Below are positions 2,557 to 38,496 of a DNA stretch of 64,000 nt, in pieces. The first letter of the stretch is position 1; each line of letters opens with the position of its first letter. Below the pieces are notes generated by a model. That model was not told the DNA's origin. It made no database searches and worked only from the letters and a program-made list of their open reading frames with translations. This DNA comes from Deltaproteobacteria bacterium. GTDB lineage: Bacteria > Desulfobacterota > Binatia > UBA9968. The DNA is taken from the NCBI GenBank assembly GCA_016874755.1, contig VGTH01000008.1:62001-126000 (forward strand), written 5' to 3'. The position numbers were made by a program, and so were the translations under genes.

Positions 2557-3966
2557 ATGGCCGACGGCGACGTTCTCGCAATGAACCTGACCGATCTTTC
2601 CTGGCTGATCGCGAGCAAGAAAGTTTCGGCGAGCGAAGTGGTCAGCGCCGCGCTGGCACGGCTTGACCAGTTCGAACCGCAGCTCAATGCGTTCATCACG
2701 GTGGATCGCGACGGCGCACTGGCGCAGGCCAAACGAGCGGACGAAGAAATCACCCGTGGCGCTTATCGCGGGCCGCTGCACGGCGTGCCAGTGTCGATCA
2801 AAGACCTTTTTGAAACCGCCGGCATGCGCACGACCGGCGGCTCGAAAATCTTTGCCGATTGGATTCCCGAGCACGACTCGGCGCTGGCGGAAAAATTGAA
2901 AGCGGCGGGCGCGATTAATCTTGGCAAAACTAACCTCGACGAGTTCGGCCACGGCGGCACGTCGACGCTGTCGCATTTTGGCCCGGTGCACAATCCGTGG
3001 AACGTCGAGCGCATCGCCGGCGGCTCGAGCGGCGGCTCGGCGGCCGCGGTGGCTGCCGGCATTGGGCCGCTTTCCTACGGCACGGAGACCGGCTCGTCGG
3101 TGCGCCGGCCGGCGTCCTATTGCGGCGTGGTCGGCTTCAAGCCGACCTTTGGCATCATCAGCCGCACCGGATCGTTTCGCGGCGCCTGGAGCCAGGACCA
3201 CGCCGGATTGTTCGCGCGATCCGTCAAAGACATTTGCCTGGGCTTGGATGTAGTTGCCGGCTTCGACCGGCGCGATCCCGCTAGCGTGCCGCAGGAGACA
3301 CCGCAGTACGCCGCCCGCCTCGACAGCAACATCAAAGGGCTCAAGATCGGCGTCTTGAGAAATTTTCTCGAAAGCGTCACGCCCAATGTCAAAACTGCGT
3401 TCGAAGCGGCGCTCAAGGTTTTCGCCAGCGCGGGCGCCGAGCTCGTCGACTTCGACGTGCCGGAGCTGCGCTACGCGGCGATGACTTCCAATTTCACCAG
3501 CTCGGCCGAAAGCGGCGGCATCAATCGCATTTGGTTTCGTCAGCACGCGCACGACTACGTGCCCCATGTGGCGCGTGGCATCGCCGTCGGATTGACCATT
3601 AGCGCGTCGGAGTATCTGACCGCGCAGCGGGCGCGCCAGCGCATTCGCGAAGCGGTGCGCGCGGCCTACGATAAAGTTGCGATCATCGCCACGCCGACGA
3701 CGAGCCGCATCGCGCCGTTATTGTCCGAGGGGCTCAAGGGCAACGGCGATGACGCGCGCCATGTGAGCACCAACCATTCCAACATGCTGCGCTTCCCGAG
3801 CATGCTCGGCTTGCCTGGCTGCTCGCTGCCGATTGGCATCAGCCCGGAAAACATGCCGATGGGCGTGCAGCTCGTCGGCAAATGGTTCACCGATCAGACG
3901 GTGCTCAATGCAGCGGCGGCGTATCAGAACGAGACCGACTGGCACACGAAGCGGCCGAAGATATGA
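2557..3966 (+). CDS. Amidase-signature family hydrolase (AtzE/GatA-like)
   Basis: A 469-residue amidase-signature enzyme. The catalytic Lys lies in the VSIKDLF motif, the glycine/serine-rich signature GGSSGGSAAAVAAG follows, and the cis-Ser/Ser nucleophile region reads GTETGSSVRRPAS, where Ser replaces the usual second Gly. ATG at 2557 has GGGAAGG upstream, so the longer in-frame start at 2512 is rejected because it overlaps the small upstream gene. With its GatC/AtzG-like partner it looks like a two-subunit amide hydrolase such as AtzE-AtzG (1-carboxybiuret hydrolase). GatB is absent, so a role in tRNA amidation is unlikely. The substrate is unknown. Confidence 0.88.
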   Translation: MADGDVLAMNLTDLSWLIASKKVSASEVVSAALARLDQFEPQLNAFITVDRDGALAQAKRADEEITRGAYRGPLHGVPVSIKDLFETAGMRTTGGSKIFADWIPEHDSALAEKLKAAGAINLGKTNLDEFGHGGTSTLSHFGPVHNPWNVERIAGGSSGGSAAAVAAGIGPLSYGTETGSSVRRPASYCGVVGFKPTFGIISRTGSFRGAWSQDHAGLFARSVKDICLGLDVVAGFDRRDPASVPQETPQYAARLDSNIKGLKIGVLRNFLESVTPNVKTAFEAALKVFASAGAELVDFDVPELRYAAMTSNFTSSAESGGINRIWFRQHAHDYVPHVARGIAVGLTISASEYLTAQRARQRIREAVRAAYDKVAIIATPTTSRIAPLLSEGLKGNGDDARHVSTNHSNMLRFPSMLGLPGCSLPIGISPENMPMGVQLVGKWFTDQTVLNAAAAYQNETDWHTKRPKI

Positions 3967-21209: not shown

Positions 21210-21553
21210 CGGCTTTCACCGTAGCGCCGGTCGTTCGGGTTAATCAAGAGGGTTCCCCGAGATCAACAGAGAAGGAACCACGAAACACCCAGCGCGGAGA
21301 GCCGCAACCAAAGAAAAGAATAGCCGCAAAAAACGCAAAAGGCGCAAGAAAGAATTTCGACGCAGGGGGCGGGTTTTAAACCCGCCCTTCCGACCTACAC
21401 AATTTGTCCTCTCCGATCTTATTTTCCTTCACCGAACTCGGTGTCCTCCGTGCCTCTGTGGTGAGTCTGAATTCGGTTTGACAGTTTTCACTGCAAAATA
21501 GTACGTAGCGGCTGGGCTTGCTCCGATCGATGCGACTCAAGAGAGGAATATCC
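21210..21553. repeat. 344-bp gap with composite GCAAA + GGGCGGGTTT repeat
   Basis: The gap contains CCGCAAAAAACGCAAAAGGCGCAA (about 21324-21347) followed by the palindrome GGGCGGGTTTTAAACCCGCCC (21367-21387). This is the same composite as at 3977-4098. An ACCGAACTCGGTGTCC inverted motif follows at about 21431. A GAGAGGAAT ribosome-binding site for the next gene sits at its right end. No gene is supported. Confidence 0.7.
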
Positions 21554-28049: not shown

Positions 28050-29174
28050 TCACCGCAAGATCTTGGTGATCTCTTCCTCAAAGGGCGCGTCATCGTTGGC
28101 GAAGACCGCTGCCAGCTCTTTCGGGTCTTGCAGCTTGAGTTTATTGCCGCGGACGTATTTATGCATGAGGGTGCCTTCGACCAGATAGGAGCTGCGGTGG
28201 TCTTGCTTCTCCAACACCGATTGCGCTTCTCGCGTGGTCATGTAGGCGATGAACAGCCGCGCCGAGTTTGGCCGCGCCGAGTTTCTTGGAATCGCAAGTT
28301 GATAATACGAGGAAGTCGGCGGGTTCGATCCCGGCAGGCCGACGAGCGGCGCGCCTTTGGCTTGCCACTTCCACATCGCTTCGAGCGGCCCACCGGTGCT
28401 GCCCATGATTGGGAACTCGCCGCTGACAATCCGCTCTTCTTCACCTTGGCGCAGCTTGCCGCCGACCAGCGGCGCGAGCTTGCGCGCGAAGGAGAGCACT
28501 TTCTCTTTGCCCCACACCGACGAGAGGCGAATTAGCCAGTGGTAGTAGGTTGGAATTGCCAGCTTGCCGGCCCAGGTCGGCGAAAGTTTCGGATCGACGA
28601 GATCTTCATAGCTCTTGGGAGCTTTGTCTTTGGGAATCGCTTGCGAGTTGTAGATGATGCCGTGAAACGAGGCGTAAACAAGCAAGGTCTCTTGCGGAAA
28701 CATTTCCATTTCCTTGGTGACCCAGGGGAAGGTTCCAGCAAAGCTTACCGTTTGTAGCGCTTTCGCTTGGTGCATATCCGCCATGGTGCCGTCGGAACCG
28801 AGATACATATCCGTCGAGGCTTTGGCGCCGGCTTTGATCTCCGACATCACCCGCGCCGCCACTTGGGGGAAGCTCGGGCCGCCGACTAAATTGACTTTGT
28901 GATTGAGGCCGAAGCGTTTGTTGAAGCCGGCTTCTAATTCGGTGAAGCCTTTTTTGCCGCCGAAGGTTGACGAGCTGGCGACCAGGGTGACTTCGCCTTC
29001 TTTTTTGGCTTCGGCGATGATTTGCTCCATCGTTTGGGAGTGAGAAGTATCCGGCGCAATCAGAGCAACGCCCGCTGCTAGAAATAATAGAGCGCCGCTG
29101 GTGCGCGCCCTCACCCGAAGCCTCTCCCAGAGGGCGAGGGAACTCCGATGGCCTACATGGATTCGGTTAAGCAT
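28050..29174 (-). CDS. ABC-type solute-binding protein with repeat-derived signal peptide
   Basis: A 374-residue periplasmic binding protein with domain hallmarks IIAEAKKEGEVTLVASSSTF, DLVDPKLSPTWAGK and RPNSARLFIAYMTTREAQ. ATG at 29174 has a strong AAGGAGAG site six bases upstream. Residues 10-24 (RSSLALWERLRVRAR) are the translation of a dispersed repeat (29102-29147), and the hydrophobic signal core TSGALLFLAAGVALIA follows it, giving an unusually long basic n-region. GTG at 29114 would give a normal signal peptide but lacks a ribosome-binding site. It is a close paralog of the protein at 37414. It lies 53 bp downstream of the Rieske gene, so uptake and oxidation of one substrate is likely. 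No permease is adjacent. Confidence 0.87.
   Translation of the reverse strand: MLNRIHVGHRSSLALWERLRVRARTSGALLFLAAGVALIAPDTSHSQTMEQIIAEAKKEGEVTLVASSSTFGGKKGFTELEAGFNKRFGLNHKVNLVGGPSFPQVAARVMSEIKAGAKASTDMYLGSDGTMADMHQAKALQTVSFAGTFPWVTKEMEMFPQETLLVYASFHGIIYNSQAIPKDKAPKSYEDLVDPKLSPTWAGKLAIPTYYHWLIRLSSVWGKEKVLSFARKLAPLVGGKLRQGEEERIVSGEFPIMGSTGGPLEAMWKWQAKGAPLVGLPGSNPPTSSYYQLAIPRNSARPNSARLFIAYMTTREAQSVLEKQDHRSSYLVEGTLMHKYVRGNKLKLQDPKELAAVFANDDAPFEEEITKILR
29102..29147. repeat. Dispersed palindromic repeat inside a signal-peptide coding region
   Basis: The plus strand reads CCCTCACCCGAAGCCTCTCC then AGAGGGCGAGGG, an imperfect palindrome of a type common between genes in many bacteria. Here it lies in frame within codons 10-24 of the binding-protein gene. 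Confidence 0.65.
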
Positions 29175-29227
29175 TAGTTTCTCTCCTTAAACTCCGCGCA
29201 CTCCGCGCCTCTGTGGTGAATCTTTTT

Positions 29228-30361
29228 TTAACTCAGCGCTTCCACCGCATCGCGGCTTGAATCGAACGTGATCGGTCCATTCTTTTGCGGATCGCGGATG
29301 ACGGCGAAGGGGTCTTTGCCCTGCTGCACGGCATCGATCGACTCGCGGATCATTTTGCGCAGCAGCAAGATCCCTTGGTCGCCCGTCGCCAAATGTTCCT
29401 TGGTGCGATCGGCGATGGGGCCTTGGGTTTCCTGGGCAACGCGATCTTGTTCGCGGTTGGGCAGGTTCCACCAGCCGTCTTTGACGCGCTCATAGACACC
29501 GGGCACGGCGTAGTCGAATTTGCCGGTCTTGAGTGCCACCGGCCGCGTCGGCTTGCCATCTTTGTGCGGGTAAAAATCGATGTGATACGTGGTGGTCTTG
29601 TAGTCGTCGGTGGGCACGCGGAAGCGAATCACCTGGCGCGGATCTTCGCCAACGCGCGCGGCCGAGTGGCGCACGTGCGCGGGAAAAACAAAATGCGAGA
29701 TGCGCGGCTTGGAGACACCTTCGACGTAGGTGGTTTCTTTGATGCCAAAAGGGCTGGGCTCCCATTTAATATTCGGCCGCTTCATCGCCATGTTCGGGTA
29801 GCCGGGTGCGTGCAGCGCGATCGAATGGGTGCCATCGGCGGAGTTCTCGGCGCGCTGCAGCCAGTTGCAATGCTCCTCGCCGCCGCCCACCACGCGGCAG
29901 CCATCTTGCCGCACCAGCAAGTCAAACGCCGGCAAAAGCGGCGCCGGCTCCGGACCGATGTAGGCCATGACTAAACCACCGGCATCTTGGGCGTGAAACG
30001 CCGGATGCTGGATGCGGTTTTTGAAGGTGCTGTCGGCCGGCTCGGCCGGCTGGTCCAAACATTTGCCGCGGGCGTTGTACAACCAACCATGATAGCAGCA
30101 GCGAATACCATTTTCCTCGACGCGGCCAAATTCCAACGACGTGCCGCGATGCGAACAGTGCAATTCCAACAGTCCCAATTGGCCGCTGCCGTCGCGAAAC
30201 AAAACGAAATCTTCGCCGAGCAGGCGCACCTTGCGCGGGCCGTTCTCTTGGGTCACTTCTTCGCTAAACGCCACCGGCCACCAGTAGCGCCGCAACATTT
30301 CGCCCGCCGGCGTGCCCGGTCCGACGCGGGTCATCAAATCATTCTCTTCCTTAGTCAGCAT
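29228..30361 (-). CDS. Rieske non-haem iron oxygenase, alpha subunit
   Basis: A 377-residue oxygenase. The Rieske [2Fe-2S] motif is CSHRG at the first pair and CCYHGW at the second, near residues 69-93. The mononuclear iron site is ENSADGTHSIALH (Asp...His...His) near 170-182. It belongs to the aromatic ring-hydroxylating and demethylating group. ATG at 30361. A binding-protein gene follows on the same strand, suggesting import and oxidation of an aromatic or alkylamine-type compound. No reductase or ferredoxin gene is adjacent. A degenerate C-terminal copy lies at 26168. Confidence 0.92.
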   Translation of the reverse strand: MLTKEENDLMTRVGPGTPAGEMLRRYWWPVAFSEEVTQENGPRKVRLLGEDFVLFRDGSGQLGLLELHCSHRGTSLEFGRVEENGIRCCYHGWLYNARGKCLDQPAEPADSTFKNRIQHPAFHAQDAGGLVMAYIGPEPAPLLPAFDLLVRQDGCRVVGGGEEHCNWLQRAENSADGTHSIALHAPGYPNMAMKRPNIKWEPSPFGIKETTYVEGVSKPRISHFVFPAHVRHSAARVGEDPRQVIRFRVPTDDYKTTTYHIDFYPHKDGKPTRPVALKTGKFDYAVPGVYERVKDGWWNLPNREQDRVAQETQGPIADRTKEHLATGDQGILLLRKMIRESIDAVQQGKDPFAVIRDPQKNGPITFDSSRDAVEALS

Positions 30362-37413: not shown

Positions 37414-38496
37414 CTATTGTTTCAAAATCTTCGCCAACTCGGCTTTGAATTGCAGCCCTTCGTCGCTTTCGCCCTTGAGATAGTAGTCAATGGATTCTTT
37501 GGGCGATTGGAGAGACAACTTCGACTCACGCAAGTGTTTGTTCATCAGCGTGCCTTCGACCAGATGTGAGCTGCGCGACTCGTGCTTCTGCAAAACCTCC
37601 TGCGCTTCTTTGGTTGTCATGAAGGCAACGAATAGTTTGGCGAGGTTTGGGTGCGGCGCGTTGCGCGGCACGCTGAGTTGGAAATAGTCGGTATTGATCG
37701 GCGTCGTGCCCGGCACCGCCATGATCGGTGCGCCTTTGGCCTTCCACTTCCACATGGCGCTCAGCGAGTCGCCGAGGTTGGCCATGATCGGATACTCGCC
37801 GCTGACGATGCGTTCTTCCTCGCTGTAGCGCAGGCGCCCGGCGCTGATGGCGACCAACTTGCGGGCGAAGTCTTTTACTTTCTCCGTGCCCCAATTGAGC
37901 GACAGCTCGGCCAGCCAGGCAACATAGGGAGGAATAGCGATTTTCCCGGCCCAGGTCGGGCTCAATTTCGGGTCTACTAAATCGAGGTAGCTCTTCGGCG
38001 CTTTGTCCTTGGGGATCAAATTGACGTTATAGATGATGCCGTTGGGCGAGGTGTAGGTGAGCACGGTTTCGCTGGGATAGATTTCCATTTGCTTGGTGAC
38101 CCACGGAAAGATGCCGGCGTAGTTGACTTTTTCGAGGGCGTTCTCGACGTGCATCAATGCCTGGTGCGACTGCGAGCCCAAGAAAATATCGGAAGATACT
38201 TTGTTGCCGGATTTGATCTCGGCAATATGGCGTGCGGCGCGCGCGTTCATGTCTGGCCCGGCGGCAAAGGCGATTTTCATTTTCGTACCAAAGCGCTTGT
38301 TGAACGCCGCTTCGAGATCGCTCTGTCCCTTTCTGCCGCCGAAGGTGCCGGCGCCGGCGATAAAGACGAGCTCTTCCTCTTTTCTTGCCGCAGCGACCAA
38401 AGACTCCACGGTGTCGGCCGCAAAAGCTTTTGCGGAGTGGACCAGCTGCGCCCCCAGCAATGCTGCTCCAGCCAAGAATAAATTCAGTTTCGTCAT
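37414..38496 (-). CDS. ABC-type solute-binding protein (paralog of 28050)
   Basis: A 360-residue secreted protein with signal peptide LFLAGAALLGAQLVHSAKAFA. It shares IPKDKAPKSY, DLVDPKLSPTWAGK and EERIVSGEYPIM with the binding protein at 28050, so the two are recent paralogs. ATG at 38496 has AAAGGCGA upstream, whereas the longer frame from 38541 has no ribosome-binding site. It lies 23 bp after the haem-oxygenase-fold gene on the same strand. As with the other copy, a binding protein is paired with an oxygen-using enzyme and no permease. Confidence 0.88.
   Translation of the reverse strand: MTKLNLFLAGAALLGAQLVHSAKAFAADTVESLVAAARKEEELVFIAGAGTFGGRKGQSDLEAAFNKRFGTKMKIAFAAGPDMNARAARHIAEIKSGNKVSSDIFLGSQSHQALMHVENALEKVNYAGIFPWVTKQMEIYPSETVLTYTSPNGIIYNVNLIPKDKAPKSYLDLVDPKLSPTWAGKIAIPPYVAWLAELSLNWGTEKVKDFARKLVAISAGRLRYSEEERIVSGEYPIMANLGDSLSAMWKWKAKGAPIMAVPGTTPINTDYFQLSVPRNAPHPNLAKLFVAFMTTKEAQEVLQKHESRSSHLVEGTLMNKHLRESKLSLQSPKESIDYYLKGESDEGLQFKAELAKILKQ

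Follow-up and report, generated by a model that had tools for sequence, protein, structure and literature searches.

A REP/MITE-like repeat arm in frame at the 5′ end of a solute-binding protein gene, probably translated as a long arginine-rich n-region

A solute-binding protein (SBP) gene in the 64-kb window (the whole stretch of DNA that was analyzed) carries a REP/MITE-like insert at its 5′ end, which is probably translated as a long, arginine-rich n-region from a start most likely at the ATG at 29174. According to the mechanism that we favor, one arm of a REP/MITE-like palindromic family would have inserted in this lineage between the start codon and the hydrophobic core and would have kept the reading frame. 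Codons 10-23 would then be made as part of a Sec-type signal peptide that begins at ATG 29174 and has about 46 residues. Because n-regions do not fold and are cleaved off, they would be expected to tolerate inserts, and this is likely why the inserts persist. The window species is represented by one genome.

The SBP gene occupies 28050..29174 on the minus strand, with 374 codons from the ATG (29174-29172). A profile search assigns its product to Pfam SBP_bac_1 (E 1.9e-9), with SBP_bac_11, SBP_bac_8 and SBP_bac_6 also above the cut-off. A Shine-Dalgarno (SD) sequence, AAGGAG, lies 7-8 nt ahead of the ATG on the same strand, and its duplex energy is -9.2 kcal/mol against assumed anti-SD letters. 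The strong ribosome-binding site named in the sequence-only reading is therefore present, but at 29183..29188 and not at 29174. Directly before the SD, in the 5′ UTR, the genome pattern search placed one member of another dispersed repeat family, the second repeat (CACCACAGAGGC...GGAG; 29192..29218, minus strand). Farther upstream is a gene with a Rieske domain (Pfam; 29228..30361, minus strand) that serves as a synteny marker.

Within the gene, a pattern search located a 33-bp core, CCCTCGCCCTCTGGGAGAGGCTTCGGGTGAGGG, that belongs to a single arm of the REP-like repeat; it lies at 29108..29140 (minus strand), in frame as residues S12-R22. By eye comparison with 30 copies, the arm probably extends over 29104..29147 (minus strand; boundaries approximate), with the family-like flanks CGGAGTT and CGCG; the former encodes R10-S11, and a similar flank is found on other copies of the repeat. 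Codons 10-23 thus read RSSLALWERLRVRA, of which codons 12-22 are the core. The earlier claim of a dispersed palindromic repeat serving as codons holds for both the family and the reading frame. The window has a single copy of the core, where 0.00 occurrences are expected from 100 shuffles, and as this is the only repeat site in the entire window, the paralog at 37414 lacks the insert, as had been stated. The normal signal core said to follow the repeat is likewise found there, a hydrophobic stretch, ALLFLAAGVALIA, at about residues 28-40 by hydropathy only (29055..29093, minus strand). Past it, SHS/Q aligns with the mature start A/QKLEQ of the orthologs, which places the probable cleavage site between S46 and Q47 (29034..29039, minus strand). 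No convincing terminator or promoter was found at the repeat site in the window. A single Rfam match, far under its gathering score, was ignored.

Other copies of the repeat, which the sequence-only reading had proposed to look for, are abundant in the genome to which the window belongs (G000; 5.56 Mb, 101 contigs). A search with a 20-base core pattern, allowing up to 3 mismatches, gave 55 matches in 34 clusters, and the reversed-pattern control gave none. Many of these clusters are inverted pairs, consisting of two opposite-strand arms about 60-85 bp apart that are not identical to each other. The window copy is a solitary arm that resembles, by eye, the arm flanked by CGAGTT-type letters. 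With a slightly looser pattern and at most 1 mismatch, the repeat was also detected in the genomes of 26 of 58 relatives, which range from the same genus to the same class. The family agrees with the description of REP/BIME elements as dispersed, imperfect palindromes of 20-40 bp in many copies, and a 9-bp stem is predicted for the window copy; by eye, no constant GTAG/CGTC end tag was noticed in the 30 printed copies. By eye, the arms at the two ends of the dimers are inverted, and their flanks are so in part. Three Y1_Tnp genes are present in G000, and none of the three has a repeat site (up to 3 mismatches) in its locus of 2.2-3.3 kb; with the repeat absent from the flanks of all three Y1 transposases, we rejected a RAYT as the mobiliser, and a mobiliser other than RAYT may be involved. 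The hairpin of the single arm in the window is not more stable than shuffled sequences (z 0.82 and -0.66), and a strong RNA structure was therefore discarded as its role. The second dispersed repeat (CACCACAGAGGC..GGAG type) has 32 matches in G000 (up to 3 mismatches; none in the reversed-pattern control), with copies in the window at 29192-29218 and 21437-21463, both on the minus strand.

Three genomes of the same genus (G001, G002 and G004) have an ortholog of the window gene that immediately follows this Rieske gene; the records that bear them include JAERMN010000062.1 (Deltaproteobacteria bacterium) and CAMDBU010000026.1 (Syntrophobacter sp. SbD2). We found no repeat site (up to 3 mismatches) in the 4.6-7 kb examined around these syntenic orthologs, whose signal peptides, read by eye, have 21 (G001), 18 (G002) and 30 (G004) residues. 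A genome rich in the repeat and orthologs free of it are both in line with the sequence-only reading. The mature window SBP is 73.7-77.1% identical to the three orthologs, and the neighboring Rieske protein 78.5-79.6%; among the three relatives themselves, the values are 85-89% for the SBP and 86-90% for the Rieske protein. Because its identities are close to those of its Rieske neighbor, the window SBP appears to evolve only slightly faster and has no sign of decay. In a relative-rate tree of five sequences the paralog took an odd position, and the tree was set aside. In the spacer ahead of two orthologs we observed another repeat-like stretch, of the GAGAATGG type, at 3060-3290 of locus L115 (G002) and 3300-3460 of locus L117 (G004), where it provides the likely SD of the G004 ortholog.

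The sequence-only reading described one gene; the window case stands, but further copies of this repeat within signal peptides of other SBPs of G000 had been overlooked. After examining all 55 matches of this genome, we found 5 of the 34 clusters in SBP signal peptides that have no in-frame ATG, GTG or TTG between the repeat and the hydrophobic core. The coding-ORF scan identified these as the window gene, L016 (TctC family), L018 and L022 (both NMT1 family) and L107 (SBP_bac_1). L110 (NMT1) is an ambiguous sixth case: a GTG follows the repeat but borders on the hydrophobic stretch, so that the scan lists no start between the two. In the sister species G001, all 88 matches, counted as 43 clusters, include one clear case (L128, NMT1) and one ambiguous one (L149); L204 of G010 is also ambiguous, a start codon following the repeat in both L149 and L204. 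No clear signal-peptide case was found in the examined parts of G015 (10 of 10 matches), G006 (10 of 18), G032 (30 of 174) and G010 (52 matches in all, covered by 10 loci from the search and another 20 stretches). In L028, L109, L153, L154 and similar loci, the repeat was judged to lie upstream of a later start, merely extending the open reading frame, and these were set aside.

L016, L018, L022, L107 and L128, all SBPs by Pfam, carry the two-armed form of the repeat. In the stretches shown, neither of the two closest orthologs of L107 (G001, G003) and none of four orthologs of L016 (G001, G002, G003, G004) has a repeat site at up to 4 mismatches, and the sister-species orthologs of both genes begin at the corresponding place. 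Since the window gene, L016 and L107 each have orthologs that lack the repeat in the stretches examined, the three genes received separate insertions, and hitchhiking of the repeat on gene duplication was rejected for all three. Counted from the first possible start of the open reading frame, the n-regions have 26 (window), 81 (L016), 29 (L022), 58 (L107) and 52 (L128) residues. The SD is good in L016 (-9.3 kcal/mol) and weak in L107 (-2.4 kcal/mol) and L128 (-1.4 kcal/mol), and some of the parallel cases with a weak SD may be poorly expressed or decaying. Two further observations concern these loci. GTTCAA-type repeats occupy codons 4-14 of L016, before the two-armed insert, and the signal peptide of its ortholog L253 (G003; about 1501-1640) reads through repeats of this type. 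In L013 (G000) and L149 (G001), the shared spacer ahead of a TctC-type gene carries a two-armed repeat whose arms are in opposite order in the two species (by eye), as if the spacer had been hit twice.

The best sign that the repeat is translated outside signal peptides comes from a dihydrolipoamide acyltransferase gene. In L002 of G000 (1130-2398), the repeat is in frame at codons 96-134, in the linker between the lipoyl domain (4-76) and the E3-binding domain (147-182) as defined by Pfam. It also lies between the corresponding acyltransferase stretches, in frame after the lipoyl domain, in L135 of G001 (570-1790) and L210 of G010 (595-1905), so that the repeat-derived linker is present in three genomes of two genera. 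At the other end of genes, arms read in another frame give a 3′-end stop codon (..PSPSGRG..stop) in L008 and L029 of G000 and in L214 and L225 of G032.

No in-frame ATG, GTG or TTG occurs between the end of the repeat and the hydrophobic core of the window gene, so the start codon must either precede the repeat or belong to it. Inside the repeat, the GTG at 29112..29114 (V21, minus strand) is in frame and 8 nt past the SD-like UGGGAGA, and both the SD-like letters and the GTG codon are derived from the repeat. The suggestion of the sequence-only reading that GTG 29114 could have become the working start thus has an in-frame codon and an SD-like site behind it. We nevertheless consider a start at ATG 29174 to have a good, though not conclusive, case, because its SD is stronger (-9.2 versus -7.3 kcal/mol at spacing 8) and the GTG is within the predicted 9-bp stem. 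Signal-peptide features were called from hydropathy, charge and ortholog alignment. Counted from ATG 29174, the n-region would have 26-28 residues, a net charge of +6 and many arginines, which would make it as unusually long and arginine-rich as first described. From GTG 29114, it would have 8 residues and a net charge of +3, giving an ordinary signal peptide. Against the coding sequence of G000, the first 40 codons score -0.37 and -0.06, and later stretches mostly 0.2-0.6; such a non-coding-like beginning is expected of a recent insert but also of untranslated DNA. The proposed change of export route found no support, as residues 1-46 have no RR pair, hence no twin-arginine motif, and the signal peptides of the orthologs look Sec-type. 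The Tat route was accordingly dropped for this protein.

The alternative that survives best is that the repeat acts as a portable start site, bringing the SD-like GGGAGAGG and a GTG 8 nt on, so that translation would begin at GTG 29114 and everything upstream would be 5′ UTR or part of a minor form. This is rather unlikely in our view, although the repeat-borne SD duplex and the short, positive n-region noted above would both suit it. The first arm is read in the GTG-containing frame in the window gene, L016, L107 and L128, and the sole possible ATG, GTG or TTG start of L022 is within the dimer. In its treatment of three species, PMC3733652 infers downstream starts for most N-terminal REPs. 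Ribosomes from ATG 29174, however, with a stronger SD and an in-frame, stop-free path, would read through the repeat, and the GTG is paired in the predicted hairpin, even if shuffled sequences fold just as stably. In addition, dimers would keep their second arm translated even if the first arm's GTG were the start, and L018 has the repeat in another frame.

The repeat may also be a mobile 5′-end cassette for exported proteins that rewires the expression and export of SBP paralogs and is retained for that in G000, which we regard as improbable. Each arm combines the SD-like GGGAGAGG with a suitably spaced GTG, whose frame encodes an arginine-rich peptide, WERxRVRA; it is a similarly doubtful idea that an arm landing before a hydrophobic core would supply a start and a positive n-region together.

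In G000, an SBP mature start lies 66-219 nt downstream of 13 of the 34 clusters, comprising six signal-peptide cases (including the ambiguous one) and seven in which the repeat is in the 5′ UTR and an ordinary start lies past it. As background, 8.2% of gaps and 7.1% of intergenic bases taken at random were equally close in a sample of 464 kb of G000 (20 stretches of 20 kb at regular chosen places plus the window), where the same queries found 27 SBP starts among 390 called genes. The enrichment has a binomial P of 2e-7 to 1e-6 with seven SBP queries, six of which are repeat-bearing genes themselves, and once these six are removed it becomes 7 of 28 (P 0.002-0.006). E-values refer to small locus sets in the proximity test and to a fixed database size in the background test. 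The sister species G001 has no significant enrichment (5 of 43, P about 0.17-0.27). For comparison, the second dispersed repeat is near an SBP start, that of one of 3 genes, at 4 of its 30 loci, which amount to 25 distinct places, and the Fisher test, computed with 3 of 29, gives P 0.019. SBP genes are much expanded in G000, where an SBP_bac/NMT1-type query finds 106 matches and a TctC query 123. The enrichment at SBP starts is thus a property of G000, in which SBP genes are numerous and stand in arrays, making the clusters non-independent.

One could read these numbers as a sign that, close to SBP genes, the repeats work chiefly through RNA or DNA, for example as expression-tuning hairpins, and that their presence in signal peptides simply follows from their abundance at 5′ ends. 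We think this very unlikely: the 13 clusters do exceed the intergenic background and seven are in 5′ UTRs, but the count comes from one genome and shrinks without the query genes, the single-arm hairpin in the window is no more stable than shuffles, and such a role would in any case be compatible with translation. That the insert damaged the gene, turning one of very many SBP paralogs into a pseudogene, is highly improbable, for all the redundancy of SBPs in G000 and the weak upstream SDs of several parallel cases, given that the frame is open, the mature part is coding-like, the strong SD is kept and identity to the orthologs is similar to that of the neighboring Rieske protein.

Several independent inserts of one family at SBP n-regions, beside repeat-free orthologs at the same loci, outweigh a single case. 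They amount to a natural experiment on how much extra length a Sec n-region can take, and on whether start sites can arise from repeats. They also mean that automatic start calls need care in environmental genomes that are rich in both repeats and SBPs.

An unusually long, charged n-region ahead of a Sec signal core is familiar from the extended signal peptides (ESPR) of autotransporters, which share a conserved family motif. The insert described here differs in being repeat-derived and species-specific. Published examples of proteins with palindromic inserts already exist, one of them in a signal peptide (PMC3733652, PMC2759123); among open-licence PMC papers, we found no published recurrence of palindromic repeats at SBP signal peptides. 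The relevant passages of PMC3733652 describe REPs within open reading frames, more at N-termini than at ends, and hold many of the N-terminal ones to be extragenic as translation may begin downstream. Like our family, these REPs are palindromes of 20-40 bp that occur singly and as inverted dimers, some in frame and many N-terminal. The paper assigns most of them to GTAG- or CGTC-tagged families, and the core letters of the window family do not appear in its main text. They differ, as presented there, in the emphasis on DNA-repair genes rather than SBPs and in most N-terminal copies being regarded as extragenic. The palindromic elements of Rickettsia (RPE), work of Ogata and Claverie that PMC3733652 and PMC2229807 cite, are also selfish palindromes in frame in protein genes, and some N-terminal ones are reported to be expressed, including RPE-1-decorated N-termini in R. 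conorii (PMC3733652), but they are of different sequence and longer, and the citing passages draw no link to signal peptides. Another close parallel is the RU-2 (YPAL) MITE in Yersinia YPO1552, a locus whose predicted signal peptide is partly made by the element (Delihas 2007, PMC2759123; PMC2229807). As in the window, a dispersed palindrome is in frame, there forming residues 1-30 of the predicted signal peptide. The passages on RU-2 concern one locus, a putative exported protein and hydrophobic residues from the element, whereas the window repeat supplies an arginine-rich n-region, recurs in several known SBP genes and can be set against repeat-free syntenic orthologs.
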